A DNA stretch of 64,000 nt from Segatella oris (lineage in GTDB: Bacteria; Bacteroidota; Bacteroidia; Bacteroidales; Bacteroidaceae), in contig NZ_LR134384.1 of assembly GCF_900637655.1 (NCBI RefSeq), forward strand, positions 558,001 to 622,000. Reading direction: 5' to 3'. Positions 14,703 to 58,906 of this stretch are shown here, piece by piece (within the stretch, counting starts at the first letter, position 1; every line of letters begins with the position of its first letter). The notes beneath the pieces are model-generated. The model was not told the DNA's origin and searched no databases. It saw only the letters and a program-made list of their open reading frames with translations. Made by a program: the position numbers and the translations under genes.

Positions 14703-14812
14703 CCAATCTGCATCAAATGAGCCTGTCATCTGCGTCAAATCGCACTGTAACTTGATGCAAATGACGCGCTAATCTGCGTCAAGTTACGCGGCAATCTGAC
14801 GCAAGTTACAAA
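14703..14812. repeat. 22-bp palindrome array 1 (five units)
   Basis: Five units start at 14703, 14725, 14747, 14769 and 14791, exactly 22 bp apart. Each has a GTAAYTT-type left arm, a five-base GCGTC or GACGC-like centre and an AARTTAC-type right arm, then three spacer bases. The array lies in the 448-bp gap between the divergent dinB and ychF genes; the rest of that gap shows no gene. Confidence 0.9.
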
Positions 14813-14921
14813 ACAGTTTCATACTGCAAAGATTACGCCTTCATTGCTTTACTTTTACCTTATCCCTCTTCTCTTTTTGCTTTTTTACCTTTTCCTCTGC
14901 TTCCCTTTATGATTTTTTGTG

Positions 14922-14929
14922 TATTTTTG
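14922..14929 (+). promoter_or_regulatory. Promoter -7 box for ychF
   Basis: TATTTTTG, 64 nt before the ychF ATG. Confidence 0.5.
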
Positions 14930-14993
14930 CAGGCAGAAACAAGGATAAATGCAGGCAGGAAAGATTGCCCGCACACAAAAAACATAAAGAAAA

Positions 14994-16097
14994 ATGGCTT
15001 TGAAATGTGGAATTGTAGGCCTGCCAAACGTGGGAAAGTCTACGCTGTTCAACTGTCTGTCGAGTGCCAAGGCACAGTCGGCAAACTTCCCTTTTTGTAC
15101 GATTGAGCCGAATTTGGGTGTGATTACGGTGCCCGATGAGCGACTCAACAAGCTTGCTGAGATTGTTCATCCGGGGCGGATTGTACCTGCTACGTGTGAG
15201 ATTGTCGATATTGCCGGGCTTGTCAAGGGTGCTTCCAAAGGCGAAGGACTCGGCAATAAGTTCTTGGGAAACATTCGTGAATGCGATGCAATCATTCATG
15301 TCATCCGCTGTTTTGATGACGATAACATTGTGCGTGAAGGCGGCATGGCGGTTGACCCACTTGAAGACAAGAGCATCATTGACACCGAGCTACAGCTGAA
15401 AGACCTTGAAACGATTGATGCCCAGCTCAGTAAACAGCAGAAAGCTGCGGCTGCAGGCAACAAGGATGCCAAATTGATGTGCACGGTTCTGGAAGCTTAT
15501 AAGGCTGTGCTTGAGCAGGGAAAGAATGCGCGTGAGGTGACATTTGAAAGCAAAGATGAGCAGCAGGCAGCCCATGATCTCTTCCTGTTGACCACGAAAC
15601 CTGTGCTCTACGTATGCAATGTAGATGAAGCAAGCGCTAAAACGGGCAACGATTATTCACGTCGTGTGGAGGAAATGGCAGCCCAAGAAGGAGCTGAAGC
15701 CATGGTGATTGCAGCCAAGACCGAGGAAGATATCGCTTCTTTGGAAACCTATGAAGACAAGCAGATGTTCCTCGAAGAGTTGGGATTGGAGCAGAGTGGT
15801 GTCAACCGTCTTATCCAAAAGGCCTACGCTTTGCTTAATCTTGAAACGTTTATCACGGCAGGCGAAATGGAAGTAAAAGCCTGGACGTATCACAAAGGCT
15901 GGAAAGCGCCACAGTGTGCAGGTGTAATTCACACCGATTTTGAAAAGGGTTTCATCCGTGCCGAGGTCATCAAATACGATGATTACATTAAGTATGGCTC
16001 GGAAACTGCAGTCAGAGAAGCTGGTAAACTCGGTATCGAAGGTAAGGAATACGTTGTGCAGGACGGTGACATCATGCACTTTAGGTTTAATGTGTAA
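14994..16097 (+). CDS. ychF: Ribosome-binding ATPase YchF (Obg family)
   Basis: A 367-residue P-loop protein. G1 is G-L-P-N-V-G-K-S-T at residues 8-16, G3 is D-I-A-G-L near residue 70, and the G4 position reads N-V-D-E instead of NKxD, the feature that makes YchF prefer ATP over GTP. A helical domain (about 130-200) interrupts the nucleotide-binding domain and the TGS domain closes the C-terminus ([11 protein letters not shown]). YchF binds ribosomes and affects stress responses. It is transcribed alone; the first C/G-rich repeat copy begins 18 bp after its stop. Confidence 0.97.
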
Positions 16098-16115
16098 TAC
16101 CAAACACACCCTAAA

Positions 16116-16146
16116 ACCCACCCCAACCCTCCCAAAGGGAGGGAGT
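16116..16146. repeat. C/G-rich hairpin repeat, type I
   Basis: A C-rich copy of the dispersed element: tail ACCCACCCCAA, then CCTCCC-AAAG-GGGAGG hairpin and AGT. It lies just after ychF and may double as its transcript end. It faces the copy at 16358. Confidence 0.85.
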
Positions 16147-16357
16147 AAGAAATTGAGTATCTCTCCTTACCTTTATGGAATTTAAGAAGTATGCATTGGC
16201 TAAAGTTCCATACTGTTCAGAATTCAATGCCAGGAGTTGGGAAGAAAATCTATAGAAGAAACATATATAGAACCTCATAAGTAACAAGTATAATATCTTT
16301 GATTATCACATATAAATAATTATTTCTAAAATTATATACTAAGCCTACAAATGCGCA

Positions 16358-16387
16358 CTCCCTCCCTTTGGGAGGGTTGGGGTGGGT
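16358..16387. repeat. C/G-rich hairpin repeat, type I (inverted copy)
   Basis: CTCCCTCCC-TTTG-GGAGGG followed by TTGGGGTGGGT. The G-rich strand contains GGGAGGGTTGGGGTGGG, a canonical short-loop quadruplex pattern. It ends 29 bp before the lgt start. Confidence 0.85.
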
Positions 16388-16416
16388 TTCGAGGTTGGTT
16401 ATATTTATTTTTTCTT

Positions 16417-17271: not shown

Positions 17272-17280
17272 AACAGGAGC

Positions 17281-17308
17281 CTCTCCCAGACCCTCCAAGG
17301 AGGGGAGT
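17281..17308. repeat. C/G-rich hairpin repeat (degenerate)
   Basis: A worn copy (CCTCCAAGGAGGGGAGT core with a CTCTCCCAGA tail) starting 10 bp after the lgt stop. Confidence 0.65.
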
Positions 17309-17504
17309 GCTGGCTTGTAGTTTCACCAACTCTGCTTAATTTTGACGGTGTTCAATAACCTTTATAGCATGTAGCTACGTAAATACATGGATAAACACTC
17401 TGCTGTGATAATGGTAAATGGCATTTCATGCATATATAGCTACGTGAATACATGAATAAACTCCCTCCGTTCGAGATAAGCAATTGAAATTATTCAAAAG
17501 CAAA

Positions 17505-17544
17505 GATTTATCCCCAATTAGTGCACCCAAAATCTGTTTGCATG
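17505..17544. repeat. Leader module shared with 39531-39570
   Basis: The stretch containing TTATCCCCAATTAGTGCA and then AAATCTGT/TGCATG is nearly identical to 39531-39570, and both run straight into a 22-bp array with the same first unit. Confidence 0.8.
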
Positions 17545-17651
17545 GTAATTTGCCGTAGATTACGCTGCAACTTAACCCATTTTACCATGTAATCTACGTC
17601 AAAATGCGTGGTAACTCCATTCACTTTACGCGGTAAAGTGAATGGAGTTGC
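17545..17651. repeat. 22-bp palindrome array 2 (five units)
   Basis: Units start at 17545, 17567, 17589, 17611 and 17633. The last two units are reverse complements of each other (GTAACTCCATTCACTTTAC and GTAAAGTGAATGGAGTTGC), forming a 41-bp inverted pair. Lies between the convergent lgt and dus genes. Confidence 0.9.
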
Positions 17652-17675
17652 ATCGCACAAGGAAGGAAAACAAGG

Positions 17676-17840
17676 CCTCACCCCCAGCCCTTTGCTAAGA
17701 AGGAATGAGGGAAACAAAGCCTCACCCCCAGCCCCTCTCCAAGGAGAGGGGAGTAATATGTTCTCTAATTATATTGTATTAAAAACTTCATTTCCTAAGC
17801 ATTTCACTCCCCTCTCCTTGGAGAGGGGTTGGGGGTGAGG
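17676..17840. repeat. Composite of one half and two full C/G-rich type II repeats
   Basis: A half copy (CCTCACCCCCAGCCC, from about 17677) is followed by a full copy at 17720-17754 and an inverted full copy at 17806-17840, around a 51-bp AT-rich loop. The loop and both copies are repeated in reverse at 25316-25511. The inverted copy is read as the last codons of dus. Confidence 0.88.
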
Positions 17841-18815
17841 CTTTAATTTCCCTCTACACTCCTCGAATATCGCAATCAGTTCGTCGACTTTCGTGGCACG
17901 AAGCATGGCGATACGCGTTTGTTTGAAATCGGGAATGCCTTTGAAAATAGGACTCGAAGCAAGGTGACGACGCGTGTGGATAATGCCTCGATACACATCG
18001 ATGCGTTCCACATTAATACGGAGTTGTTCCTCAAGAATGTCGATTTTGTCGTCTATGGTCAAAGGGCTTGACGTGGTGTTATCAATAAAATCGCGCATCT
18101 CTTTGAATACCCATGGGCGGCCAAATGTGGCACGTCCCACCATAACCGCATCTACACCATAATCATCAAAGGCACGTTTGGCTTCTTCGGGAGTAGTGAT
18201 GTCGCCGTTACCGATAATGGGAATATGTATTCGAGGGTTGCTTTTCACCTTGCCTATCAAGGTCCAATCGGCCTCACCGGTGTACATCTGGGCACGCGTG
18301 CGGCCATGGATTGTGAGCGCTTGTATGCCACAATCCTGCAGTTGTTCAGCCAAATCAGTGATAATAAGACTGTCATTATCCCACCCCAAACGCGTCTTCA
18401 CGGTGACCGGAGTGCTGACAGCTTTCACCACGTTTCGCGTGATGTCAAGCAGCAACGGTATGTTGCGAAGCATGCCCGAACCGGCCCCCTTGCCGGCTAC
18501 TTTCTTTACCGGACAGCCGAAATTCAAGTCAATCAAATCGGGTTTCACCTGTTCAACAATCTTTGCAGCCTCAACCATTGACTCGACATCCCGACCGTAA
18601 ATCTGAATTCCAACAGGGCGTTCGGCATCATTGATGGTCATCTTATCAAGCGTCGACTTGATGCTTCTGATAATGGCATCTGCCGACACAAACTCTGTAT
18701 AAACCATTGCTGCACCATACTGTTTGCAAAGCATTCGAAAGCCAATGTCGGTCACATCTTCCATCGGAGCGAGGAAAAGCGGACGCTCACCAAAGTCTAA
18801 TTTGCCTATTTTCAT
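17769..18815 (-). CDS. dusB: tRNA-dihydrouridine synthase (DusB-like)
   Basis: A 348-residue FMN enzyme that reduces uridine to dihydrouridine in tRNA. Family features: L-A-P-M-E-D-V-T-D near residue 15, N-F-G-C-P-V-K-K with the catalytic Cys near 100, V-K-T-R-L-G-W, the T-I-H-G-R-T motif, and G-N-G-D-I / M-V-G-R-A for FMN phosphate. The last 24 or so residues (K-P-H-P-Q-P-L-S-K-E-R-G and onward) are a translation of the C/G-rich repeat at 17806-17840 and its flank, so the native C-terminus was replaced or extended. The -7 box lies only 7 nt upstream of the ATG. The exact Dus subfamily is less certain than the family. Confidence 0.93.
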   Translation of the reverse strand: MKIGKLDFGERPLFLAPMEDVTDIGFRMLCKQYGAAMVYTEFVSADAIIRSIKSTLDKMTINDAERPVGIQIYGRDVESMVEAAKIVEQVKPDLIDLNFGCPVKKVAGKGAGSGMLRNIPLLLDITRNVVKAVSTPVTVKTRLGWDNDSLIITDLAEQLQDCGIQALTIHGRTRAQMYTGEADWTLIGKVKSNPRIHIPIIGNGDITTPEEAKRAFDDYGVDAVMVGRATFGRPWVFKEMRDFIDNTTSSPLTIDDKIDILEEQLRINVERIDVYRGIIHTRRHLASSPIFKGIPDFKQTRIAMLRATKVDELIAIFEECRGKLKPHPQPLSKERGVKCLGNEVFNTI

Positions 18816-25291: not shown

Positions 25292-25315
25292 GGAAGCAGA
25301 AACTGCAACCCCTCA

Positions 25316-25488
25316 GCTAAGAAATAAAGAGGAAAACAAGGCCTCTCCCCCTACCCCTCTCCAAAGAGAGGGGAGTGAAATGTCTTTGAAATGGAGTTTA
25401 TAATACAATATAATTAGCGAACATATTACTCCCCTCTCTTTGGAGAGGGGTAGGGGGAGAGGCCTTGTTTTCCTCTTTATTTCTTAGC
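25316..25488. repeat. Perfect 61-bp inverted repeat of type II elements
   Basis: Arms 25316-25376 and 25428-25488 are exact reverse complements around a 51-bp AT-rich loop. Each arm contains a CCCCTCTCC-type hairpin plus 26 bp of flank (GCTAAGAAATAAAGAGG). A further half copy follows to 25511. It starts 25 bp after the wbqC-like stop. Confidence 0.95.
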
Positions 25489-25529
25489 AAAGGGCAGGGG
25501 GTGAGGCTTTGTTCCCCTCCTTGTGCGAT

Positions 25530-25636
25530 GCAACTCCATTCATTTTACCGCGTAATGTGAATGGAGTTACCACGTCTTTTGACGCAGATTACACAGTCAT
25601 TTGATGCAAATGACAACATGCCTTAACGTCAAAAAG
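25530..25636. repeat. 22-bp palindrome array 3 (five units)
   Basis: Units start at 25530, 25552, 25574, 25596 and 25618. The fourth, GTCATTTGATGCAAATGAC, has perfect seven-base arms that differ from the usual GTAACTT/AAGTTAC but still pair. The order array - linker - half repeat - inverted pair is the mirror of 17545-17840. Confidence 0.9.
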
Positions 25637-25639
25637 CGC

Positions 25640-25748
25640 ATTAATTCCAAATAAATGAGATAATCGTTTGACACTCAATGCTTTGCCAAACGTCCTTAAA
25701 ACTCGCGTATTTCGAGCCGAGGGAAATCTGTTTTTGAATTCGCGAGTT
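25640..25748. repeat. CGCGAATTC module shared with 31722-31855
   Basis: Read on the minus strand, this runs AACTCGCGAATTCAAAAACA, then CGAAATACGCGAGTTTT, and continues into array 3. The copy at 31722-31855 is closely similar over its whole length and leads into array 4 in the same order. The ends can form a AACTCGCG/CGCGAGTT hairpin. Confidence 0.8.
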
Positions 25749-25779
25749 ATGCAAAGGCATTTATAAAGGAAAATCAAAA

Positions 25780-29420: not shown

Positions 29421-30008
29421 ATGATGAAAATAGAAATGCCAAAATTGGCTTATGCAACAACGGCCTTGGAGCCTGTTATCAGCGAACAGACTATCAACTT
29501 CCACTATGGTAAGCATCTGCAGAACTACGTTAATACACTTAGTTCGCTTGTAAAAGACACCGAATGGGACAGTAAAAGCGTGGAAGAAATCGTGAAAGGA
29601 GCACCCGAAGGCCCGATTTTCAACAATGCAGGACAGGTGTTAAACCACGCACTCTACTTTGAACAGTTCCGTGCTCCACGCCATAACAACCTGCCTGAAG
29701 GCCGAATTCTGAATGCTATCAACGACGCATTTGGCAACTTCGACAATTTCAAAGCGCAGTTTACACAGGCAGCAACGACGCTGTTTGGTTCGGGTTGGGC
29801 CTGGCTTTCGCAACAGGCTGACGGCAAACTCGTCATTACCAAGGAGGCAAACGGCAGCAATCCGCTGCGTCACGGCCTTACACCTCTCTACGGACTTGAC
29901 GTGTGGGAACATGCCTACTACCTTGACTTCCAGAACCGACGTGCCGACCATGTCGCTGCAAGTTGGGACATTGTGGACTGGGAGAAGGTGGAAGAAAGGT
30001 TGAAGTAA
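29421..30008 (+). CDS. sodB: Superoxide dismutase (Fe/Mn family)
   Basis: A 195-residue cytoplasmic superoxide dismutase converting superoxide to hydrogen peroxide and oxygen. The four metal ligands are visible: His28 (N-F-H-Y-G-K-H), His76 (L-N-H-A-L-Y-F), Asp160 and His164 (L-D-V-W-E-H-A-Y). The sequence resembles the iron-type or cambialistic enzymes of Bacteroidales. It may start at Met1 or Met2. A C/G-rich repeat begins right at the stop codon. Confidence 0.97.
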   Translation: MMKIEMPKLAYATTALEPVISEQTINFHYGKHLQNYVNTLSSLVKDTEWDSKSVEEIVKGAPEGPIFNNAGQVLNHALYFEQFRAPRHNNLPEGRILNAINDAFGNFDNFKAQFTQAATTLFGSGWAWLSQQADGKLVITKEANGSNPLRHGLTPLYGLDVWEHAYYLDFQNRRADHVAASWDIVDWEKVEERLK

Positions 30009-30044
30009 AGCCTCACCCCCAACCCCTCTCCAAGGAGAGGGGAG
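30008..30044. repeat. C/G-rich hairpin repeat, type II
   Basis: CCTCACCCCCAACCCCTCTCC then AAGGAGAGGGGAG, beginning immediately after the sodB stop. The remaining 300 bp up to 30355 hold one terminator-like hairpin and no gene. Confidence 0.85.
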
Positions 30045-30188
30045 CGCTAAAAGCGAGGAAATGGAGGAGGGATTACAGAGCGTTATCAGGAAGAACGATT
30101 TTTCTTTTTGCATCGGAAAATAGATTATAAGCATTACATTGTTTTGATTTTTTCCACGAAAACATAGTTACGAAAGTTGATATAGAGG

Positions 30189-31662: not shown

Positions 31663-31721
31663 ACATTGAGATTTAGGAATGTATCGATACCCGTCAACAT
31701 TCTTTACAAATGCCCTCACAC

Positions 31722-31855
31722 AGCTCGCGAATTCAAAAACAGTTTTCCCTCAGCCCGAAATACGCGAGTTTTGAGGGTGTTTTGCAATACATTGACTATC
31801 AAATGATTATCTCATTTACTTGGAATGAATGTGCATTTCGACGTCAAAGCATGTT
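31722..31855. repeat. CGCGAATTC module, second copy
   Basis: Matches the reverse complement of 25640-25748 closely, from AGCTCGCGAATTC to the GTTGTCATTTG that begins array 4. Lies between convergent genes. Confidence 0.8.
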
Positions 31856-31962
31856 GTCATTTGCGTCAAATGACTGTGTAAGATGCGTCAAGTGGCGTGG
31901 TAATTCCATTCACTTTGTGCGGTCGTTTGGTGCAAATGGCGCCGTAAAGTGGCGTAGATTGT
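31834..31962. repeat. 22-bp palindrome array 4 (five to six units)
   Basis: Clear units start at 31856, 31878, 31900, 31922 and 31944; a weaker one precedes. The first, GTCATTTGCGTCAAATGAC, is a perfect palindrome apart from its centre. The rest of the gap to 32242 (31963-32160) shows no gene. Confidence 0.9.
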
Positions 31963-36397: not shown

Positions 36398-36575
36398 CTA
36401 TATTTTAATGATTTATCAAAGTATTTTAGATAAAATAATCTATATTTAAATTAGGATTTAGTCTCTGGAATATGCTATACGGAATATTCACTTTTATGAG
36501 ATATTGATAGAAGTGCATTTTCGTCTGTGCACATAAATCCATAAAACAAGGTTTCAAGGTTATGAAAACAAGAAA

Positions 36576-36619
36576 GGAAGTATCAGCAAGAATTCTACAT
36601 TGCTTAGCTTGATACTTCC
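36576..36619 (-). terminator. Terminator of the GH84 gene
   Basis: Ten-bp perfect stem GGAAGTATCA / TGATACTTCC; on the minus strand it is followed by a T-rich run (TTTCTTGTTTT). It lies 36 bp past the GH84 stop. The rest of the 416-bp gap before frdC has no gene. Confidence 0.85.
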
Positions 36620-36654
36620 TCACTATAGAAAAACTAATAAAAATAATCGTTCAA

Positions 36655-39249
36655 TTAATGTTGGGATTTAGGTATGATTTCAAACACATTTGCTTTTCCA
36701 ATAACCTCTATACGGGTCACATTTTTTGCAACATCCACAGTAAAGAATGGAGAAGTAGATGTATATTCGGCCTTCAAGCGATTACGCTTGTCATACTGAC
36801 AAAGGCGAACCGAACCGTCTGTTGGCAAAGAAAGCAAGAATGTAAAAGCTGTTGTACCGTGTGGTACCCTAAATGAGAAATCGCCTATACTCTTGAAAAT
36901 GGTACTTGGTTGATGATCGAAAGCATTCAGAATGTCATTCGACACACCGTTGTTCTCAATAAAGGGAGTTGCAGCCACATTTTCAGGAACCACTGTAAAC
37001 GAACGAACAGCTGCCCAGTTTGTACGTTTTGAATCGAGTCGGACAAGGCGAATATAACGTGCCTCTATTGGTCTTTCAGCCTTCCAAAGAATATCATACT
37101 GATTATGTAAACCCGTTAAAAGCGGCTTCCAGACTTTGCCATCAACAGAATACTCTATTGCGGCATGGTCAAAGAAGTCGGTATCATCTTTAGAATTTCT
37201 GCCTTGTAAGATATGAACCTCACGAATAGGCATCGGTTCGGGAAGTGAAACTCCAATCCAATCACCTGCTTTCTGACTCTCACCAGAAGTATAGAAGGTG
37301 GCACTGTCACCATCCAACATGAGTTCACTCTGTGTTGTTCCTATATTCCTATAGGTTCCTGTGCCATGCAAAGAGAAAGCTTTCTTACCCGATTGCCGCT
37401 CATAAAAAGCTTCTCCTAAATCTTTCATGGCACATTCGTAGAATGGTTGCAGCTTCATTGTACCGGATTTATGTGCCTCGTAAGCTTGCTTATCCTTATT
37501 GCTCATCAGGTTTTTTACATATGCTTTCCAAAAGGATGATGCATCTTCGGAGCGATAGAGATCCATGAGTTCAAGGGCTTTCTTGCCACGCATACCAAGT
37601 TTCCCGAACTCTTTCAGCCACGGTTGGAGTTCTTGAAGAAGCAGAGTGTCATTACAACCCGCTTCAATCTTTGCGGGCGCCTGTGCCACACGTTCGAACT
37701 CTTCATAAAGTTTATCACGCTTTTCCTTTGTATAATCAGCTAACCGGAAAGTCTCTGTCCCCCATGATTCATCGCGACGATAGCCCGTTTCTGTGTCTGC
37801 AGAATGGATAGCAAATGTGCGATAAGCCTCTTTTGCATGGGGCATCATCACCTCTAAACCACGTTCCCAACTGTCAATTGGATTATAGGCAGCAGGATTC
37901 CACGTATAGTCTGCCACACTATAGAGTGAAAGTTTCGAAGCCTCTCCATGCTCCATAGGGTTACTGACAAGTCCACACATATCTTTATTTGTGAGTGAAG
38001 TGTCTAAACCATAGACCGGACCTTGCAATATAAGATTACGAACATAGTCGGTTACAGCATAGTTCCACCAGAAGAAAGCAGGACGTTTGATACGGCTATC
38101 CACCCAGTCGAGAGTTTCTTTTGTGACATCACTGCAAACCACATCGCCTGTCCAAAACACACGGACAGAGGGATCGAGGGTGCGTCCATAAATGCTCAAT
38201 GGGCCGTCTTCATCTGCTTTTGCCCATAACTTAGAATAATCCGTCGGACAGATAATAAGCGGTGAGACATCGCCTTTGGCTTTTACAAATTCCTTGGTCA
38301 AGCGATTCAACAGCTCAACTTGCTTATTCGGATTAGTTCCTTCCCCTGAAATATCATCGAAGAATATAGCAAATGAGCGTACACCGTCTGCATACATGAG
38401 ATTAAATTTACGTACAAGATTCTGGTAATCTTCCTCATTCCACTTAATATCTTTTCCTGGATGAATCGCCCAAACGAAGTCTACCCGGTTCCTCCGACAC
38501 GCCTCAACTAATTCCTTAATGTTTCTTTGCTCCCTCTCCGGATACGGCAGACGCCAGTTTGGTGAACTGTGATAAGGATCGTCTTTCGGACCATAAATAT
38601 AGGTGTTCAGCTTATATCGTCCATAAAATTCAATCAGAGACAGACGTACGGCATGTGACCACGGCATACCATAAAAGCCTTCAACAACACCACGATAAGG
38701 GAAGACAGGTGCATCATTAATTTCCAAACAAGGTAGTTTCCTACCACCTTCTGCTATAGGACTCTCTATGATCTGACGCAAAGTCTGAATAGCATAGAAC
38801 ACTCCCGCATCATTAGCAGCCTGAATACGAATTCCCTTTGGACTTACCGTCAATGAATAGGCCCCATCAACATTAGCCTGTTTCTTACTGACAACATCCA
38901 CAACAAGAGGTTTTTCCACTAATTGTATCTGCAAAGGGAAGCCCTTTGAAGAGAGGGAAAGGAACGTCAGCTCGTTCCTATAGTCGAAGGTTAGCTTACG
39001 TTTCGATATTGGTTGAATTAAATGAACACCGACACTGATGTCTACAGTATTTCCACTTGTCAGTCTCAAATGGCGAGGTGTCGGATTAATAACAAGTCCA
39101 TGGTGATCGATTTTCTTACCAGGGACAGGGGTTATTGATTGTATTTCCGAACGTTGACTGCCTAAATCGAACTCATTTTCCTGTGCTTGTACTACTGTAA
39201 AGGTGCATAGACTCAATACAAATGCAACTAAGATCTTCTTTTGTTTCAT
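36655..39249 (-). CDS. GH84 beta-N-acetylglucosaminidase
   Basis: An 864-residue secreted enzyme (signal peptide to about residue 22). An N-terminal GH20b-like domain (about 50-165) precedes the GH84 TIM barrel (about 180-470) with the paired catalytic Asp298-Asp299 in F-F-D-D-I and the entry motif R-G-V-V-E-G-F-Y-G. A helical region and an F5/8 type C carbohydrate-binding-like domain (about 620-770) follow. It uses substrate-assisted catalysis to release terminal N-acetylglucosamine, for example from host mucin, O-GlcNAc or hyaluronan fragments. Transcribed alone; a plausible companion to the glycosaminoglycan locus at 1-11 kb, but that is inference. Confidence 0.94.
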   Translation of the reverse strand: MKQKKILVAFVLSLCTFTVVQAQENEFDLGSQRSEIQSITPVPGKKIDHHGLVINPTPRHLRLTSGNTVDISVGVHLIQPISKRKLTFDYRNELTFLSLSSKGFPLQIQLVEKPLVVDVVSKKQANVDGAYSLTVSPKGIRIQAANDAGVFYAIQTLRQIIESPIAEGGRKLPCLEINDAPVFPYRGVVEGFYGMPWSHAVRLSLIEFYGRYKLNTYIYGPKDDPYHSSPNWRLPYPEREQRNIKELVEACRRNRVDFVWAIHPGKDIKWNEEDYQNLVRKFNLMYADGVRSFAIFFDDISGEGTNPNKQVELLNRLTKEFVKAKGDVSPLIICPTDYSKLWAKADEDGPLSIYGRTLDPSVRVFWTGDVVCSDVTKETLDWVDSRIKRPAFFWWNYAVTDYVRNLILQGPVYGLDTSLTNKDMCGLVSNPMEHGEASKLSLYSVADYTWNPAAYNPIDSWERGLEVMMPHAKEAYRTFAIHSADTETGYRRDESWGTETFRLADYTKEKRDKLYEEFERVAQAPAKIEAGCNDTLLLQELQPWLKEFGKLGMRGKKALELMDLYRSEDASSFWKAYVKNLMSNKDKQAYEAHKSGTMKLQPFYECAMKDLGEAFYERQSGKKAFSLHGTGTYRNIGTTQSELMLDGDSATFYTSGESQKAGDWIGVSLPEPMPIREVHILQGRNSKDDTDFFDHAAIEYSVDGKVWKPLLTGLHNQYDILWKAERPIEARYIRLVRLDSKRTNWAAVRSFTVVPENVAATPFIENNGVSNDILNAFDHQPSTIFKSIGDFSFRVPHGTTAFTFLLSLPTDGSVRLCQYDKRNRLKAEYTSTSPFFTVDVAKNVTRIEVIGKANVFEIIPKSQH

Positions 39250-39347
39250 GTAGGTTTTTAATTATTTAGCTTACAACTGATCACACATTTTCATATATGT
39301 TTCAGCCGTTTATAAAAGATTTCACAATCGTTTCTCTTTGCAACGGT

Positions 39348-39355
39348 CAAAGATA
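39348..39355 (-). promoter_or_regulatory. Promoter -7 box for GH84
   Basis: TATCTTTG on the minus strand, 98 nt before the GH84 start. Confidence 0.5.
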
Positions 39356-39530
39356 ACGCCAACAAAGATAAGAAATAAAAATAAATTCTAACCATCCACA
39401 GATATAAAAAAACAGATGAATATGATTTATCTATTACAAGAAAATATATGACATTTATATAAAAACTGTAAGACTTTGACCATTGCATTACCCTGTTCGG
39501 GACAGGAAATTGGAACTACTCAAGAGCTAA

Positions 39531-39570
39531 GATTTATCCCCAATTAGTGCAACCTAAATCTGTCTGCATG
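39531..39570. repeat. Leader module shared with 17505-17544
   Basis: Contains TTATCCCCAATTAGTGCA and AAATCTGTCTGCATG; nearly identical to the module at 17505-17544, and homology continues into the array. Confidence 0.8.
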
Positions 39571-39702
39571 GTAATTTGCCGTAGATTACGCTGCAACTTG
39601 ACTCACTTTACAGCGTAACTTGACGCTAATTACACTGTAACTTGAGGCACTTTACATCATAAAGTGACTCAAATTGCGAGGCGATTCGATTTCAATCGCA
39701 AC
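39571..39702. repeat. 22-bp palindrome array 5 (six units)
   Basis: Units start at 39571, 39593, 39615, 39637, 39659 and 39681. The last, GCGATTCGATTTCAATCGC, has arms GCGATT/AATCGC, a paired change from GTAATT/AATTAC. It lies between the divergent GH84 and mnmG genes; the rest of the 732-bp gap (39250-39981) shows no gene. Confidence 0.92.
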
Positions 39703-39963
39703 GCCACGTGATGAAACCCTATTTATTATTATATTGAATCGGGGTATTACATTAATCTGTTTCCTTTCTAAAACAGCACGAGAATATATCACAAGACTCA
39801 CAGTTCTCATGTAAGATCAATATCATGTCATCCTCTCAATCATAAACTATGGTACAGTATATTGAACGCATCCTGCTGATGCTTTTTAATGAATAAAAGC
39901 ATCATAATTCGATTTTATTTCTTAATTTTGTAACGTATCTAAAATAGAAAAGTTATATCTCTA

Positions 39964-39971
39964 TACTTTTG
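39964..39971 (+). promoter_or_regulatory. Promoter -7 box for mnmG (near-leaderless)
   Basis: TACTTTTG ends 10 nt before the mnmG ATG. Confidence 0.5.
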
Positions 39972-39981
39972 TAGAAAGACA

Positions 39982-41853
39982 ATGGAACTCAAGTATGACG
40001 TACTTGTTATCGGTGGTGGCCATGCTGGTTGCGAAGCTGCAGCGGCTTCAGCAAACATGGGAGCTAAAACCTGCTTGATAACAATGGATATGAACAAGAT
40101 AGCCCAGATGAGTTGCAATCCTGCCGTAGGTGGAATTGCGAAAGGACAAATCGTAAGAGAAATCGATGCTTTGGGTGGAAACATGGGTATTGTAACCGAT
40201 AAAACTGCCATTCAGTTCCGCATGTTGAATATTGGGAAAGGCCCAGCTGTTTGGAGTCCACGGGCACAATGCGACCGAGGTAAATTCATTTGGGAATGGC
40301 GTACAACGCTCGATCACACCGAAAATCTTGATATTTGGCAGGATCAAGCTGACGAACTCATCGTTAAAAATAACGAGGCTGTAGGTGTAAAGACTATTTG
40401 GGGAGTGACGTTTTATGCCAAAAGCATTGTCGTCACAGCAGGCACATTCCTCAACGGATTAATGCATGTCGGACGCAAAATGATAGAAGGTGGTCGCTGT
40501 GCAGAACCGGCAGTGCACCATTTCACAGAGAGTATCACACGCTGGGGAATTACTTCTGCACGTATGAAAACAGGGACTCCCATAAGAATAGACAAACGAA
40601 CTGTTCACTTTGATGAAATGGAAGAACAGAAAGGAGACACTGACTTCCATCAGTTTAGTTATATGGGTGAGCACCGCATACTCCGACAATTATCCTGTTG
40701 GACGACTTACACAAACAAAGAAGTGCACGAAACTTTACGAGAAGGTTTGACCGATTCACCTCTGTTTAATGGACAGATACAAAGCACCGGGCCTCGCTAT
40801 TGCCCCTCTATAGAGACCAAACTTGTTACATTCCCCGACAAAGAGCAACATCCGTTATTCCTTGAACCAGAAGGCGAAGACACCAATGAAATGTATCTGA
40901 ATGGGTTTTCTTCAAGTATGCCCATGGATATCCAATTAGCTGCCATCCATAAAATCCCAGCGTTTCGCGATGTAAAAATATATCGCCCTGGCTACGCTAT
41001 AGAATACGATTACTTTGACCCAACCCAATTAAAACACTCGTTGGAATCGAAGATTTTGCCTGGTTTGTTCTTTGCAGGACAGGTAAATGGCACTACAGGA
41101 TATGAAGAAGCAGGCGGACAAGGTATTGTTGCTGGCATTAATGCAGCCCTCCATTGCACAGGAAGTGAACCTTTTATAATGCAACGAGATCAGAGTTATA
41201 TCGGTGTTCTTATCGATGATTTAACAACGAAAGGCGTTGATGAACCTTACCGTATGTTTACATCTCGTGCAGAATATCGTATTCTTTTGCGTCAAGATGA
41301 CGCTGACGCACGCCTCACAGAAATAGCACACAACCTTGGAATTGCCAAACGCAATCGTTACGATTGGTGGCATCAAAAGAAAGAAGCAGTCCACCGTTTA
41401 ATTCATTTCTGCAAGGAATATCCGATTAAAGCGAGCGAAATAAACTCTCAATTAGAATCATTAGGCACCACCCCTCTTCGTGCAGGGTGTAAACTTTCTG
41501 ATTTAATTGCACGACCACACCTAACACTTCAGAACCTTTCGGAAATCATTCCAGAGCTTAAAGAAGCATTACAAATGCCGGAAAATCGAAAAGAAGAAAT
41601 AGCTGAAGCAGCCGAAATCCAGATGAAATACCAAGGATACATCGAACGAGAACGGATTATCGCCGATAAAATGCATAGATTAGAAAACATTAAAATCAAG
41701 GGAAGATTTAAATATATCGAACTTCAAGAGATTTCAACAGAAGGCCGACAAAAACTCGAAAAAATAGATCCAGAGACTTTAGCACAAGCAAGTAGAATTC
41801 CAGGAGTATCCCCAAGTGATATCAATGTACTTTTAATTCTATTAGGACGATAG
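39982..41853 (+). CDS. mnmG: tRNA uridine-5-carboxymethylaminomethyl modification enzyme MnmG
   Basis: A 623-residue FAD protein (GidA). The FAD motif is V-I-G-G-G-H-A-G-C-E-A at residues 10-20; the family signatures G-P-R-Y-C-P-S-I-E and G-Q-V-N-G-T-T-G-Y-E-E-A-G-G-Q-G are present, and the C-terminal helical domain binds MnmE. It modifies the wobble uridine of several tRNAs with MnmE. In many bacteria gidA lies near the replication origin, which agrees with the parS-like sites just downstream. Confidence 0.97.
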   Translation: MELKYDVLVIGGGHAGCEAAAASANMGAKTCLITMDMNKIAQMSCNPAVGGIAKGQIVREIDALGGNMGIVTDKTAIQFRMLNIGKGPAVWSPRAQCDRGKFIWEWRTTLDHTENLDIWQDQADELIVKNNEAVGVKTIWGVTFYAKSIVVTAGTFLNGLMHVGRKMIEGGRCAEPAVHHFTESITRWGITSARMKTGTPIRIDKRTVHFDEMEEQKGDTDFHQFSYMGEHRILRQLSCWTTYTNKEVHETLREGLTDSPLFNGQIQSTGPRYCPSIETKLVTFPDKEQHPLFLEPEGEDTNEMYLNGFSSSMPMDIQLAAIHKIPAFRDVKIYRPGYAIEYDYFDPTQLKHSLESKILPGLFFAGQVNGTTGYEEAGGQGIVAGINAALHCTGSEPFIMQRDQSYIGVLIDDLTTKGVDEPYRMFTSRAEYRILLRQDDADARLTEIAHNLGIAKRNRYDWWHQKKEAVHRLIHFCKEYPIKASEINSQLESLGTTPLRAGCKLSDLIARPHLTLQNLSEIIPELKEALQMPENRKEEIAEAAEIQMKYQGYIERERIIADKMHRLENIKIKGRFKYIELQEISTEGRQKLEKIDPETLAQASRIPGVSPSDINVLLILLGR

Positions 41854-42602: not shown

Positions 42603-42642
42603 GAATGGCAGCCTTGTTTCACGTGAAACAAGGCTGCCATTC
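42603..42642. promoter_or_regulatory. parS site 2 nested in a 40-bp perfect palindrome (terminator-like)
   Basis: Positions 42615-42630 are the exact 16-bp parS sequence TGTTTCACGTGAAACA. It is the centre of a 40-bp palindrome without mismatch whose outer arms are GAATGGCAGCCT and AGGCTGCCATTC. As RNA this would be a strong hairpin followed by TTTACTTT, placed 9 bp after the apt stop, so it can serve both as ParB site and apt terminator. Confidence 0.88.
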
Positions 42643-48206: not shown

Positions 48207-48294
48207 GCAACTTGCGTCACTTTACCACGCAACTTGCGTCATATGAGCGTGTAAAATGACGCAAGTTACAAGGTAAAACAAGTCATTTTGCAAC
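48207..48294. repeat. 22-bp palindrome array 6 (four units)
   Basis: Units start at 48207, 48229, 48251 and 48273, between the convergent WG-repeat and polyprenyl-synthase genes. The second unit and its right flank (GCAACTTGCGTCATAT) recur as the first unit of array 7. Confidence 0.9.
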
Positions 48295-48395: not shown

Positions 48396-48430
48396 TCTCC
48401 CCTCTCCTTGGAGAGGGGTTGGGGGTGAGG
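48396..48430. repeat. C/G-rich hairpin repeat, type II
   Basis: CTCCCCTCTCCTTGGAGAGG plus GGTTGGGGGTGAGG, ending 5 bp before the stop codon side of the polyprenyl synthase gene. The rest of the 397-bp gap contains array 6 and no gene. Confidence 0.88.
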
Positions 48431-48435
48431 CTTCA

Positions 48436-49413
48436 CTAACTCTTCCTCTCTATCACAAAGTCAAGATAAGCTTTCAAGGCCGTTTTTATGGCGCTATCCC
48501 CCACTCTTTCGTCAATAAACCGCATGCAATCGGCGTGGAATTTCCACATCTGTTGGTCGGCATATTCAATGCCCCCGTTCTCTTTGGTGAATGCCACGAG
48601 CTGATTGATTTCACTCTGTTTCACCTCACGTGCTTTCACTTTGCGTGCAAGCATCATCATTTCTGCATTTCCTGTAGACTTCAAAGCATAGATGACCGGT
48701 AGCGTAAGCTTGCCTTCAAGCATATCATTGCCTGTGGGTTTACCTATCTCTTTCGAGTCATAATAGTCGAAAATATCGTCTCTGATCTGGAAGATGATGC
48801 CGAGATTCTGGCCGAATTTCCTTGCCGCCTCAACGTCGTCATGACTTGCTCCGGCACTCTCTGCACCGATAGCAGCACAGGCTTCGAACAAAGCTGCAGT
48901 CTTTCGCTTGATGATTTCATAATAAGCGGTCTCGGTGATTGCCTCGTTCTGGATATTCGTCAACTGTAGAATTTCACCGTCAGAGAGCGTGCGTCCGAGT
49001 TCCGAAAGGTGTCTCACGATGACTTCTGAATGCGTTTTCGACACATAAAGCAAGGCTGTAGAAAGAATGAAATCACCCACCAAGACACTCACCTTATTAT
49101 CATATAAGGCATTCACACTGGCCTGTCCGCGTCGCTCACTGCTTTCATCTACGACATCATCATGCACAAGACTCGCCGTATGCAACAACTCCAGACCTAC
49201 TGCCGCATGCTGAGTCACACTGGAAACACGGCCGAAGTTCTTCGCCATCAGCAGGATCAGCATCGGCCTCATGCGCTTTCCTCCGCGCTGACGGATATGC
49301 ACCAGCACCTGAGATAACAGCCCTTCATCATGCGAAAGCGACTGATTGAAAAGCGATATAAAGTCTTCAAGCTCTGCTGAAATCGGCTCTTTGATGAGTG
49401 ATAAATAGTCCAT
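48436..49413 (-). CDS. ispB: Polyprenyl diphosphate synthase (trans, long chain)
   Basis: A 325-residue prenyltransferase making the long side chain of menaquinone. First Asp-rich motif L-V-H-D-D-V-V-D near residue 82, second I-R-D-D-I-F-D-Y near 212, plus G-G-K-R-M-R-P. The -7 box (minus strand, 49432-49439) leaves a leader of about 10 nt. The chain length cannot be told with certainty from sequence. Menaquinone is the partner of the fumarate reductase in this window. Confidence 0.9.
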   Translation of the reverse strand: MDYLSLIKEPISAELEDFISLFNQSLSHDEGLLSQVLVHIRQRGGKRMRPMLILLMAKNFGRVSSVTQHAAVGLELLHTASLVHDDVVDESSERRGQASVNALYDNKVSVLVGDFILSTALLYVSKTHSEVIVRHLSELGRTLSDGEILQLTNIQNEAITETAYYEIIKRKTAALFEACAAIGAESAGASHDDVEAARKFGQNLGIIFQIRDDIFDYYDSKEIGKPTGNDMLEGKLTLPVIYALKSTGNAEMMMLARKVKAREVKQSEINQLVAFTKENGGIEYADQQMWKFHADCMRFIDERVGDSAIKTALKAYLDFVIERKS

Positions 49414-52354: not shown

Positions 52355-52646
52355 AGCAACTTGGTACGAGTTATGCTCTTGAAAGCCTTATACTTGTAAT
52401 ATATGTTGTCGTTTTATATATTTGCAATTCGGTACGAGTTGTGCTCTTAAATGCCTTATATATATAATGCATATTATCGTTTCCCATATTCGCAACTCGG
52501 TACGAGTTATACTCTTAAAAGTCTTATATGTGTAATGCATATTATTGTTTTTCATATTCGCAATTCGGTACGAGTTATGCTCTTAAAAGCCTTATATGTG
52601 TAATGCATATTATTGTTTTCCATATTCGCAACTCGGTACGAGTTGT
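52355..52646. repeat. 68-bp tandem repeat array beside the Y1 transposase
   Basis: The GGTACGAG core recurs at 52363, 52431, 52499, 52567 and 52635, exactly 68 bp apart. Each unit holds the hairpin AACTCG-GTA-CGAGTT (first copy with one mismatch) followed by ATGCTCTT-AAAGCC. The intervening halves are also alike, so this is a tandem repeat and not CRISPR. Confidence 0.92.
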
Positions 52647-52692
52647 GCTCTTGAAAGCCCCATGTTGGCAAGCGAAGCAAGCCTACGTGGGG
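52647..52692. repeat. REP-like hairpin, left of the Y1 transposase
   Basis: CCCCATGTTGGC / GCCTACGTGGGG stem at 52658-52692, preceded by GCTCTTGAAAGC. Its inverted partner is 53376-53421. Confidence 0.9.
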
Positions 52693-52833: not shown

Positions 52834-52841
52834 TATCTTTG
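52834..52841 (+). promoter_or_regulatory. Promoter -7 box for the Y1 transposase
   Basis: TATCTTTG, 21 nt before the ATG at 52863. Confidence 0.6.
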
Positions 52842-52862
52842 CAAAAACCAATTCATAATCTT

Positions 52863-53324
52863 ATGCCACAATATCTCAACCAAATCCTTGTGCATTGCGT
52901 ATTTCATAAACATGCAAAAGCCGTCACCATTCAAGCACAGGACCAATTACCGCTGAATCAGTTCGTCATGCAAACCTGTCATTTCTTACATTGCCCTTGT
53001 CTCATTGCCAATGGTGTAGCCGACCATCTGCACTTCTTATTGGTGCTTGCTACCAATGTATCAATAGCTGATGTGGTGAAAGAGGTGAAACGGAAAGCCA
53101 CACTCTTCCTCAAAGAGCGCAATCCTTCTTATTACCATTCCTTTTGTTGGCAAGGCGGATATGGTGCATTCAGCGTTTCAATAAGGCACAGAGATAGTGT
53201 ATATCAATATATCTATCAACAGCAAGAACACCATAAAAAGATTTCGGCAAAAGATGAGTTTGAATCACTGTTACGCAATGCAGGCATCACAAAATACGAT
53301 GAAAAATTTTATTGGAGCACGTGA
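52863..53324 (+). CDS. Y1 (HUH) transposase, REP-associated / IS200-like
   Basis: A 153-residue single-domain Y1 transposase. The HUH motif is H-L-H in V-A-D-H-L-H-F-L-L (near residue 55-60) and the catalytic Tyr is in the Y-Q-Y-I-Y-Q-Q-Q-E-H-H-K helix near 115-122; W-Q-G-G-Y-G-A-F-S-V-S is typical of Bacteroidetes members. These proteins nick and join single-stranded DNA next to hairpins. The gene has no IS200 ends of its own but lies between inverted REP-like hairpins and unit arrays, the arrangement of REP-associated transposases. The TTG upstream in frame lies in the -7 box, so ATG 52863 is the start. Confidence 0.92.
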   Translation: MPQYLNQILVHCVFHKHAKAVTIQAQDQLPLNQFVMQTCHFLHCPCLIANGVADHLHFLLVLATNVSIADVVKEVKRKATLFLKERNPSYYHSFCWQGGYGAFSVSIRHRDSVYQYIYQQQEHHKKISAKDEFESLLRNAGITKYDEKFYWST

Positions 53325-53685: not shown

Positions 53686-53795
53686 GCAACTTGCGTCATA
53701 TTAGCGTGTAATCAGCGTCACTTTGCGTGGTAAAGTGATGCAAGTTAGGCTGTGAAATGAGTCAAATTACGAGGTAATTCAATACAAGTTACAAC
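53686..53795. repeat. 22-bp palindrome array 7 (five units)
   Basis: Units start at 53686, 53708, 53730, 53752 and 53774. The sequence after it, AACGCCATGTCATGGAACCC, resembles that after array 5. It lies between the Y1 unit and the DUF3108 gene terminator; no gene is seen in the 701-bp gap 53325-54025. Confidence 0.9.
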
Positions 53796-54883: not shown

Positions 54884-54901
54884 ATTTTCTTAAGTTATAC
54901 A

Positions 54902-56944: not shown

Positions 56945-56981
56945 ATATTTCCGTTTTTTCACCGACCAACTGCAATCAGAA

Positions 56982-57013
56982 ACTCCCTCCCTTCGGGAGG
57001 GTCGGGGTGGGTT
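56982..57013. repeat. C/G-rich hairpin repeat, type I
   Basis: ACTCCCTCCC-TTCG-GGAGGG then TCGGGGTGGGT, abutting the stop codon of the GH3-like gene and 37 bp before the lipoprotein start. Confidence 0.88.
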
Positions 57014-58526
57014 AGAGACGTTCATGGGAGGTCTTCATCACCTCTTCTATCACCTTTCTGCTGTTGCTCAACCGCGGTATCTTATGCTGTCCGCCGAGCT
57101 TTCCCTTAGCTTTCAGCCAGTCGTTGAATTGCCCTTGGCGCGCTTCGATAACCTCTAAATGCTGCAAAGTGACATCATGGAAGCGCTTTGCCTCGTAATC
57201 ACTGTTGATTTCCTGCAGCTTTTTATCCAGCAAATCGGCAAAATGTTCGAGGGAATCAGGGGCTTTTGCAAACTCAATGAGCCACTGATGACGGCATTTC
57301 GCCTTGCTGTCCATGTAGACAGGAGCGGCAGTATATTCGCTGATTTCAGCCCCTGTTTCCTTGCAGGCATAGGCCAATCCCTTCTCTGCATTGTCCATAA
57401 TCAGCTCTTCTCCAAAGGCATTGATGAAGTATTTGGTGCGACCTGTGATGACAAACTTATAGGGATTCGTGCTCGTGAAACTCACGGTGTCGCCAATAAC
57501 ATAGCGCCACAGCCCGCAACTCGTTGTAATCACCATGGCATAGTTAATGCCCTTCTGCACACCCTCAAGTGGAATGATTGTCGGATTATCTGTGCCATAC
57601 TCGTCCATGGGAATGAATTCATAGAATACATCATAGTCGGTCATCAGCAAAAGACTCTTGTCCTGCGGGTCACTTTGAATGCCGAAGAAGCCTTCACTGG
57701 CGTTGTAAGTCTCCATATATTGCATCTTCCCGCTCGTGATAAGCTGTTCATATTGCGGGCGATAAGGCGTGAAAGCAATGCCACCATGAAAGAAAACTTC
57801 AAGGTTGGGCCATACTTCTTCAAGGTGTTTCTTGCCGGAAAGCTCCATGACACGCACCAAAACACTCAGCATCCAACTGGGAACACCCGAGATATTCGTC
57901 ACGTTCTTATGGAGGCATTCGCGTGCGATGAGGTCGCGTTTCACCTCGAAATCACTCAGCAAAGCAGTCTTCTTCTTCGGCACACGCACGAGATTTGCCA
58001 GCGGATTTATATTCTCTATGAGGATTGCACTGAGGTCTCCGACAAGCGAACCTGCCACATTATAATTCGGAGAATGACTGCCACCGAGGATTAAACCACG
58101 CCCATCAAAGAGTCTGCTTTGCGGGTTGTTGCGCAGATAGAGGGCTACAACGTCGGCACCACCTGCATAGTGGATATGGTTCAATCCGTCTTTAGAGACA
58201 GGAATAAACTTGCTCTTGTCGTTGGTCGTTCCCGATGACTTGGCATACCATTTGACACGACCCGGCCACAATACATCAGCTTCTCCGTGGCGCATACGGT
58301 CGATGTCGCCCTTGAGTTCCTCGTAGGTAACGACGGGAAGCCTATGGGCAAAGTCTTCATAATGACTGCTCTGCACGCCGAACTTGCGTCCATACTCCGT
58401 CTGACTGCCATGTTCAACAAGACGCTTCAGCACTTTCTGCTGCATCTTCACGCCCTCTGTGGCATAGCGTTCCAAATCTTTTTGTCGTGGCAGGAACAGC
58501 TTTCCTGCTATGCTTGTCAAACTCAT
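57012..58526 (-). CDS. GH3-like acyl-acid adenylating enzyme
   Basis: A 504-residue member of the GH3 (auxin-responsive promoter) family of the acyl-adenylating superfamily. ATP-binding stretch A-K-S-S-G-T-T-N-D-K-S-K near residue 92; other runs typical of the family are Y-N-A-S-E-G-F-F-G, W-R-Y-V-I-G-D-T-V and G-R-T-K-Y-F-I-N-A-F-G-E-E-L. Bacterial members are thought to join an acid to an amino acid; substrate unknown here. The upstream frame is open, but the -7 box at 58551-58558 supports the Met at 58526. First gene of a three-gene operon. Confidence 0.88.
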   Translation of the reverse strand: MSLTSIAGKLFLPRQKDLERYATEGVKMQQKVLKRLVEHGSQTEYGRKFGVQSSHYEDFAHRLPVVTYEELKGDIDRMRHGEADVLWPGRVKWYAKSSGTTNDKSKFIPVSKDGLNHIHYAGGADVVALYLRNNPQSRLFDGRGLILGGSHSPNYNVAGSLVGDLSAILIENINPLANLVRVPKKKTALLSDFEVKRDLIARECLHKNVTNISGVPSWMLSVLVRVMELSGKKHLEEVWPNLEVFFHGGIAFTPYRPQYEQLITSGKMQYMETYNASEGFFGIQSDPQDKSLLLMTDYDVFYEFIPMDEYGTDNPTIIPLEGVQKGINYAMVITTSCGLWRYVIGDTVSFTSTNPYKFVITGRTKYFINAFGEELIMDNAEKGLAYACKETGAEISEYTAAPVYMDSKAKCRHQWLIEFAKAPDSLEHFADLLDKKLQEINSDYEAKRFHDVTLQHLEVIEARQGQFNDWLKAKGKLGGQHKIPRLSNSRKVIEEVMKTSHERL

Positions 58527-58550
58527 TACTTCAAAAATCGGTTTATCATG

Positions 58551-58558
58551 CAAAAGTA
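58551..58558 (-). promoter_or_regulatory. Promoter -7 box for the GH3-like operon
   Basis: TACTTTTG on the minus strand, 24 nt before the start at 58526. Confidence 0.55.
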
Positions 58559-58796
58559 ACGCTATCTTTTGGAATAGCATAAGGATTTGTTTTTTTTTAT
58601 TTTCTTTTAGGGCTTTCCTCTCTATAAATAAGAAATCATCTCCTTTCCCCATAATTTTTTAATCCCAAAACAGGGCTTTTTCATAGCTTACTACTTTCTA
58701 AAAAAATTACCGAAATTATGACATCAAATCCTGTCCTGCATTGTTCTGTTTTTCCGTAAGCAGCTTCTTGGCTCATGATTTCTTGTCATTTATCCT

Positions 58797-58906
58797 GCAA
58801 TCTGCATCATTTCAGTGCGCAATCTCAGTCATATCACCTCGCATTCTGACGCAGATTACATGCTCATCTGACGCAAATGACAACGCATTCTGAGGCTTAT
58901 TGCAAG
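58797..58906. repeat. 22-bp palindrome array 8 (five units)
   Basis: Units start at 58797, 58819, 58841, 58863 and 58885. Lies between the divergent GH3-like and yihY genes. The rest of the 614-bp gap (58527-59140) shows no gene. Confidence 0.9.

Follow-up and report, generated by a model that had tools for sequence, protein, structure and literature searches.

Rows of intergenic palindromes with a constant 22-bp step in Segatella oris and many of its congeners

What are the short rows of degenerate palindromes that recur between the genes of Segatella oris, and what has kept their layout so regular? The question is raised by eight arrays in a 64-kb stretch of DNA, positions 558001–622000 of the single 3,168,212-bp contig of this organism (the home species). 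This stretch is called the window, and window coordinates are used below for its features. Sequence is normally what identifies a repeat family. In these arrays the conserved feature is the layout, and for this reason surveys based on alignment would miss them; searches of open-licence literature turned up no account of palindromic 22-bp arrays from Prevotella. The reading that we favour, with a probability of slightly under one half, is that the arrays belong to old, dispersed, non-coding intergenic repeats of the miniature inverted-repeat transposable element (MITE) or repetitive extragenic palindromic (REP) class in Prevotella sensu lato, and that they hold, as their core, a series of sites for a putative dimeric protein whose specificity drifts between species.

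A first-pass annotation, made from the letters alone, had placed eight arrays in register, with exact 22-bp steps, and had described the unit as GTAAYTT-N5-AARTTAC followed by a 3-base spacer. Both descriptions hold. The arrays are given here with their unit numbers and, where one was recognised, their flank type (the flank families, numbered fam0 to fam4, are treated further below).

A1, 14703–14809: five units of 22 bp, between divergent genes for a Y-family polymerase and a YchF-type GTPase.
A2, 17523–17651: six units in phase (5–6 counted), between lgt and dus; the final two units are near-perfect inverted copies of one another.
A3, 25530–25614: four units.
A4, 31834–31962: in-phase run of five units at 31856–31962 (5–6 counted); type 1 flanks, fam0 on the left and fam2 on the right.
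A5, 39549–39699: seven units in phase (6–7 counted); a type 2 element, with fam3 as left flank and fam4 as right flank.
A6, 48207–48291: four units, with GTTGATAATCAAT in the right flank.
A7, 53686–53792: five units, with a REP-like fam1 module as left flank.
A8, 58797–58903: five units.

A weight matrix was built from the 41 units of these arrays and summed along the 22-bp phase. The eight arrays, on which the matrix was trained, score 67.0–113.1 bits. No other run in the window exceeds 16.4, and the best value in three random sequences simulated with an order-2 Markov model of the window is 13.4. Because the matrix had been trained on the arrays themselves, a letter-free detector was added, which combines identity at lag P with dyad symmetry over four units and was used at a threshold of 1.0 or 1.1. 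With P = 22 and threshold 1.0 it returned exactly the eight arrays in the window and nothing else. Fourteen other periods were tried there; 12 of them gave nothing, and periods 16 and 44 gave one match each. The centre GCGTC or GACGC, which the annotation had assigned to the unit, proved to be the commonest form and not a universal one, since the central triplet is CGT or ACG in 180 of 490 units genome-wide. The first 14 kb of the window are free of arrays, as had been stated, which is unremarkable.

The arrays are not limited to the window. A sequence-only model of three units (63 bp) gave at least 246 matches in the genome at E ≤ 1, with 150 of 1535 candidates scored, and at least 95 arrays were recognised on the 3.17-Mb chromosome, a lower bound counted in 489,608 bases of 65 merged stretches that were chosen around matches. 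Five units are found in 46 of these 95 arrays and four to six in 83 (3, 19, 46, 18, 6, 2 and 1 arrays have 3, 4, 5, 6, 7, 8 and 9 units, respectively). The exact 19-bp pattern is present at six places in the genome, and its backward control at none. Open reading frames (ORFs) of 100 amino acids or more were taken from a simple caller. Two arrays at stretch ends were left unclassed; 91 of the other 93 lie between ORFs, and two overlap doubtful ORFs. The annotation had counted four convergent, three divergent and one codirectional neighbourhood, which is correct for the window but is no rule, because 51 of the 91 inter-ORF arrays genome-wide are codirectional, with 21 divergent and 19 convergent. 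Array-free intergenic regions of at least 200 bp in the same stretches comprise 30 codirectional, 13 divergent and 7 convergent cases. Compared with these regions, the 91 arrays show no preference for gene orientation, and a role tied to it was rejected.

Judged by their letters, the units look like protein sites and not like RNA hairpins, since covariation of pairing is lacking and the columns are unequally constrained. Of the 490 units, 99% carry T or C in column 2, 91% carry A in column 4, and 52% carry T in column 6. The 38 arrays whose flanks are unmatched on both sides behave similarly (column 2, T or C in 99%; column 6, T in 47%), and the spectra of their four T columns differ, with a chi-square of 121.7 and p of about 7e-24, where the units within an array are not strictly independent. 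Such unequal spectra argue against even decay from a single ancestor. Complementarity within the 490 units does not exceed the column expectation, except weakly at 1:19 (z 3.0); at 9:11 and in the spacer it falls far below expectation (z −10.1 and −7.5, respectively). The latter values bear directly on the idea of an RNA-level element, in which the arrays would be transcribed as hairpins of terminators or small RNAs. The palindromic units would fit it, as would the bidirectional promoter activity described in PMC4596501 for BrickBuilt, a repeat of Porphyromonas. Nevertheless, general compensatory covariation is lacking, the associations named above are negative, the arrays show no preference for gene ends, and the window contains no Rfam match at gathering scores. 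We therefore consider this explanation extremely unlikely, and the RNA hairpin was rejected on covariation. A hairpin of the whole array was rejected as well: in the 46 five-unit arrays, identity to the array's own reverse complement is 0.530, compared with 0.554 to other arrays.

The rows have an order beyond that of the single unit. The triplets at the centre and in the spacer are alike, with ACG and CGT commonest in both, so that a row may be viewed as a series of 8-bp half-sites whose orientation flips every 11 bp. The orientation of these triplets shifts from −0.70 (standard error 0.16) four half-steps left of the array centre to +0.81 (standard error 0.15) four half-steps to the right, based on 73 arrays at each place; the row as a whole therefore has a dyad. 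Extra units out of phase are rare: at 188 edges, with shifts of up to 60, shift 23 accounts for one and shift 45 for four.

Could such rows arise merely as a by-product of palindrome metabolism, in which units without function are multiplied and inverted through hairpins or cruciforms at replication forks? Inversion of this kind is seen about 0.6 kb downstream of lgt in P. oulorum and Prevotella sp. HJM029 (L161, L165). Both have an array there, and the palindrome centre is inverted between them; its 27 bp differ at eight positions when compared directly and at one after inversion, while the 40 bp on either side differ by one and two. A triplet flip also separates the home arrays 597549 and 998525, which have a flank in common. 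On the other side, neighbouring units share 11.6 of 19 letters and units of different arrays 10.7, so there has been little recent duplication of units; simple tandem duplication was rejected on the same comparison. The unequal constraint on the columns also speaks against a by-product, and the constant 22 bp would be left unexplained. We regard this origin as quite unlikely. Where triplets differ in all three letters, flips make up 42 of 128 in similar pairs of home arrays (half-site identity of at least 0.8) and 3144 of 15548 when pairs from 40 home arrays are taken without selection. The similar pairs are not proven homologous, and flips were taken only as a lead and not as a general sign of loop inversion.

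The annotation had argued that a decaying repeat would lose its spacing. This argument is weaker than was claimed: the flanks of eight aligned type 1 elements likewise hold their length, with few gaps, and for this reason the lack of insertions and deletions within arrays is not leaned upon. A better argument is that 22 bp is constant across species. The home model at E 1e-6 matches 3 of 60 genomes of the genus, namely the home genome, G014 and G001, and G001 carries three 22-bp units whose letters differ from those at home. The nearest of 398 genomes by the ychF–lgt region is Segatella maculosa DSM 19339 (G299), at 85%. When 16 genomes were searched with the home model at E ≤ 0.001, S. maculosa gave 126 matches, G146 gave 20, G304 gave 4, and the other 13 gave none. 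The stretches read in S. maculosa hold at least 66 arrays, among them 43 with four units and 19 with five. Their units average 9.9 bits on the home matrix versus 19.2 on a self-trained one, and the GCGTC centre is replaced mainly by AGC and GCT centres. The arrays of this species also have a recurrent flank, AACGCAAGGTGTAAGTCGTTGATTATCAAT (at least 19 of 30 letters), present on one side of 33 of the 66 arrays and on both sides of 5, and at 0 of 132 shuffled edges. The sequence GTTGATAATCAAT beside A6 resembles it. A second abundant palindromic repeat, ATGTAGGGACGCACGGCTCGTGCGTCC, was seen beside many arrays at S. maculosa loci (e.g., L126, L128 and L135); it was not counted.

The letter-free detector shows how far the step extends: among the relatives, where the annotation had suggested looking for it, S. 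maculosa and many congeners keep it with changed letters. At threshold 1.0, the home loci give 96 matches at period 22 and no more than 10 at any of 16 other periods (4 at 21 and 1 at 23); S. maculosa gives 74, with at most 10 at other periods; and 294,677 bp of other Prevotella-type loci give 20, with at most 9. Congeners were then sampled as two sets of 20 genomes, with 20 kb from each and a threshold of 1.1, the second set serving as a replication. Period 22 has 24 matches in set one versus at most 9 at other periods, and 16 in set two versus at most 8. When a dyad share of at least 0.4 is demanded, set one keeps 23 matches in 11 of its 20 genomes, with no other period above 9, and set two keeps 12 in 7 of its 20, with none above 8. 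Dyad-symmetric 22-bp arrays with other letters are thus present in 18 of 40 congeners; 5 of the 40 matches are 22-bp direct repeats without a clear dyad (share below 0.4), and dropping them lowers the number of genomes from 21 to 18. Among the 16 matches in set two, one (L245) falls within a long open frame. The outgroup consisted of 20 genomes of the class and phylum beyond the genus, other genera of the same family being left out, and had no arrays at threshold 1.1 and two at 1.0. At the latter threshold, counts at other periods reach 19 in set one, 11 in set two and 22 in the outgroup. The array sequences of congeners are mostly unlike each other. Close kin share families (L184, L185 and L236; L240 and L243), so the genomes are not independent.

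The comparison among congeners also bears on a DNA-shape element, in which phased A/T-rich and G/C-rich stretches would make the DNA curved or easily wrapped, and the letters would matter little. The A/T autocorrelation at 11 bp, 0.32 in home arrays and 0.40 in those of S. maculosa, suits this idea, and a periodicity of about 11 bp is described for bacterial DNA in PMC516772 and PMC4132750. However, the 40 congener matches lack the 11-bp rhythm (mean 0.04), although their 22-bp autocorrelation is strong (0.50), and single columns are 90–99% fixed. Shape is therefore a very unlikely basis of the arrays, and curvature as a general rule was rejected.

If the core is a row of protein sites, what might carry it around the genome? 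Shared flanks offer a lead. They connect 89 of the 188 array edges into families of 21, 18, 13, 10, 9 and 4 members, plus seven pairs. Common ends, by which a MITE is recognised, were found for some of the arrays, in two combinations: type 1 elements, roughly 400 bp long, have fam2/fam0 flanks (8 of 95 arrays), and type 2 elements have fam3/fam4 flanks (4 of 95). By eye, in the printed flank families, the ends of type 2 elements are TTATCCCGAAC-like on both sides in three of the four and on one side in A5. Additionally, eight facing pairs of arrays carry fam1 modules at both inner edges, and a ninth pair at one. These modules consist of REP-like palindromes, including AACTCGTACCGAGTT and AACCCGTACCGGGTT. 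Two pairs sit within what is otherwise one type 2 element (998525–999339) and one type 1 element (695680–696673); their outer flanks are those of a single element, so the fam1 module lies inside an array. Within the window, A2, A3, A4 and A5 share half-array-plus-flank stretches as a mosaic.

17588–17851, plus strand: half of A2 and its right flank; 88% identity to the inverse of 25331–25593 (left side of A3).
25547–25768, plus strand: half of A3 and its right flank; 84% identity to the inverse of 31702–31923 (left side of A4).
39495–39667, plus strand: left flank and most of the array of A5; 79% identity to 17469–17641 (left side of A2).

The fam1 module at A7 leads to a possible agent of movement. 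Two features lie on this side of the array.

52356–52659: 68-bp tandem repeat of 4.5 copies, containing AACTCGGTACGAGTT; the same sequence is present in the fam1 module of locus L031.
52839–53324, plus strand: gene for a Y1-family transposase (IS200-like, HUH), beside A7 (Pfam PF01797, E 1.8e-15).

A genome search found three Y1_Tnp loci: the one beside A7, one between two arrays (L030, 2553–3080, E 1.2e-14) and a third, also between two arrays, which carries an internal stop. All three lie less than 0.6 kb from an array (464, 236 and 571 bp), and the one beside A7 has an array on one side only. The two intact proteins have the motifs DHLH, WQ and YIYQQQEHH. Among the subclasses laid out in PMC6006769, these are closest to 1.2 and not to the subclasses 2.x, whose third motif ends there in NP; transposases of subclass 1.2 generally lack typical IS200 ends, according to the same source. 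Transposases resembling this little-studied subclass are thus found in or beside REP-like modules bounded by arrays, at L030 and at 52839–53324 in the window. The REP-like palindromes may be their substrate.

Are the places of the arrays inherited together with their layout? In S. maculosa, most of the gene order around the window is rearranged. The home order lgt–A2–dus is split there onto two contigs, away from the contig ends, and lgt and dus each have an array of their own, at 96 and 137 bp. For A4, an array lies 158 bp from the orthologous right gene edge; for A6, an array lies in the same interval; and for A7, one lies 0.8 kb from the orthologous edge. The gene adjoining A5 is missing in S. 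maculosa. This large gene and A5 are absent together (36452–39991), and their matched neighbours are 45 bp apart (L226, 6743–6788). Both species also carry arrays in three more intergenic regions whose two neighbours they share. One of these arrays, at home position 2556959, is 70 bp from the matched stretch on one side in both species, and the distances on the other side are 54 and 75 bp. In a table of gene edges, for which the samples of both species were chosen around arrays, edges facing arrays in both species are enriched with odds ratios of 2.8, 8.8 and 4.6 at three distance cut-offs (p 0.085, 0.003 and 0.062). Conserved positions, which the annotation had raised as a possibility, are therefore likely without being proven: some are shared with S. 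maculosa, and several arrays of the window have no counterpart there.

The shared positions would also suit a platform of the host for organising its chromosome, made of sites for a nucleoid, segregation or condensation protein and unrelated to mobility. Some positions are common to both species despite changed letters, the copies are many and intergenic, the geometry is strict, and the columns are unequally constrained. Against this stand the shared flank modules, the pairing of arrays around REP-like DNA and Y1 loci, and the occurrence of different families next to each other in congeners. At E 1e-6, home-type arrays are limited to the 3 of 60 genus genomes mentioned above. The even spread that the annotation had considered is also lacking, since the 68 clusters among the matches listed include 13 in 600–800 kb and none in 2.2–2.4 Mb. 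We find such a platform unlikely. As to what the annotation had inferred, its cooperative DNA-binding platform agrees with the site-like constraint (no general compensatory pairing, unequal columns, and a period kept with other letters), and its alternative of a mobile element with such a function agrees with the shared flank modules, the paired arrays and the Y1 loci at arrays. A role in the nucleoid or in segregation found no specific support, given the lack of orientation preference and of arrays in the 20 genomes outside the genus.

The reading as mobile repeats with a core of protein sites can be put together as follows. The core holds mostly 4–6 palindromic sites at a 22-bp step. Both at home and in S. 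maculosa, successive half-sites, 11 bp apart, point in opposite directions, and the whole row is dyad-symmetric at home. Most likely, a putative dimeric DNA-binding protein would load side by side on these sites, and the row would work as a nucleoprotein platform. Its likeliest user would be the machinery for moving, pairing or silencing the elements, because arrays flank REP-like modules and Y1 loci, mark the exchange of flank modules and sit at a break in gene order. The specificity of the protein would drift and the sites would follow, so that letters change between species and geometry is kept. The old intergenic repeats would also act as joints at which flank modules are exchanged.

Several results weigh against this reading. 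No binding protein was identified for the arrays. A total of 99 of the 188 array edges match no flank family. One element that was searched against 72,556 plasmid and 50,697 phage records found no match; origin from a plasmid or phage was rejected on this result. In each of the congener stretches L184 and L185, 22-bp families that clearly differ lie next to one another, which would require several proteins or loose recognition. The excess at 22 bp in the second congener set is modest (12 versus 8 at period 18). Besides the weak pairing at 1:19 within units, there is weak positive pairing between neighbours at 13:7 and 12:8 (z 2.4 and 2.4). Comparison with S. maculosa adds further points: for A1, A3 and A8, a range of about 2 kb at both orthologous edges is free of arrays; three arrays of S. 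maculosa lie near gene edges of the window that have none at home (13348, 29136 and 62875); only the shared array at 2556959 aligns in register, with letters changed, the others not clearly; and the sharing of positions reaches p < 0.05 at one of three distance cut-offs.

A wider form of the proposal is tentative, and we hold it possible but doubtful. The arrays might represent a genus-wide class of platforms, with conserved geometry (the 22-bp step, 4–6 dyad units and a global dyad) and turnover of sequence between species, sometimes at a retained place. They would co-evolve across the genome with a putative, fast-evolving dimeric protein, and as joints for recombination they would shape the order of genes. 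Should the rows be read by a single protein family, this would be a bacterial case of genome-wide co-drift between a binding protein and about 100 sites, and it would give a handle on gene-order change in Prevotella.

Other repeats of the window were recorded alongside the arrays. Positions 61307–61566 hold a 66-bp tandem repeat of 3.9 copies with a CCCTCCCCAAGGGAGGG hairpin and short GC-rich repeats common to other places; related stretches lie at 16114–16390 and 56973–57013. A GC-rich dispersed palindromic repeat of the CCCCTCTCCAAGGAGAGGGG type, partly followed by TTGGGGGTGAGG, is found at 17707–17854, 25310–25494, 30003–30066, 48397–48437 and 61644–61699, and several copies adjoin arrays. 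A perfect 40-bp palindrome between two ORFs (42603–42642) is perhaps a terminator.

How do the arrays compare with known systems? Transposon ends and operators with several sites at a spacing of about two helical turns are known from Mu, from the TnsB sites of Tn7 and from cooperative repressors, and work on BldC (PMC5859096) reportedly belongs with these rows of protein sites at helical spacing. The arrays resemble them as rows of putative sites at such a spacing. No protein of that kind was found for the arrays, and to our knowledge, the sites of Mu, Tn7 and the repressors are not alternating palindromes in about 100 intergenic arrays. A clustered regularly interspaced short palindromic repeat (CRISPR) array was also considered and rejected, as the spacers are 3 bp long, in contrast to the spacers of a CRISPR array, which are unique and of similar length.

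Closer likenesses are found among bacterial repeats. As described in PMC3733652 and PMC6006769, a REP is a stem-loop that carries a tetranucleotide tag on one of its ends, and REPs and bacterial interspersed mosaic elements with their REP-associated tyrosine transposases (RAYTs) are also treated in PMC2817692. The arrays are like them in being intergenic palindromes of about 100 copies in mosaic clusters, adjoining Y1 transposase genes; all three Y1 loci are at arrays, although one has an array on one side only and another has an internal stop. They differ in showing no sign of selection for a hairpin, in having GCGTC at the dyad and in their fixed spacing. A stem-loop kept by compensatory change was not found in the 490 units, apart from the weak excess at 1:19, nor was a GTAG/CGTC tag at the end, as GCGTC is central and S. 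maculosa has mainly AGC/GCT centres. BrickBuilt is a MITE of Porphyromonas gingivalis with 23-nt direct repeats without spacers, reported for P. gingivalis and P. gulae; according to the same account, it has a leader and a tail, is always intergenic and occurs in 19 forms in one strain (PMC4596501). Both it and the arrays are intergenic in Bacteroidales, and in both a MITE-like element contains a tandem minisatellite whose repeat spans about two helical turns. However, the BrickBuilt repeat is 23 nt, direct and spacerless, whereas the repeat here is 22 bp and palindromic, has at least 95 copies and is free to change its sequence across the genus. Neither the 23-nt spacerless repeat nor terminal inverted repeats of the GAGACCTTTGCA type, which BrickBuilt has at its ends, were found at the home loci; period 22 prevails there, and by eye, in the printed flank families, the ends of type 2 elements are TTATCCCGAAC-like and face outward. 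BrickBuilt and the REP/RAYT systems are the closest known counterparts of the arrays.

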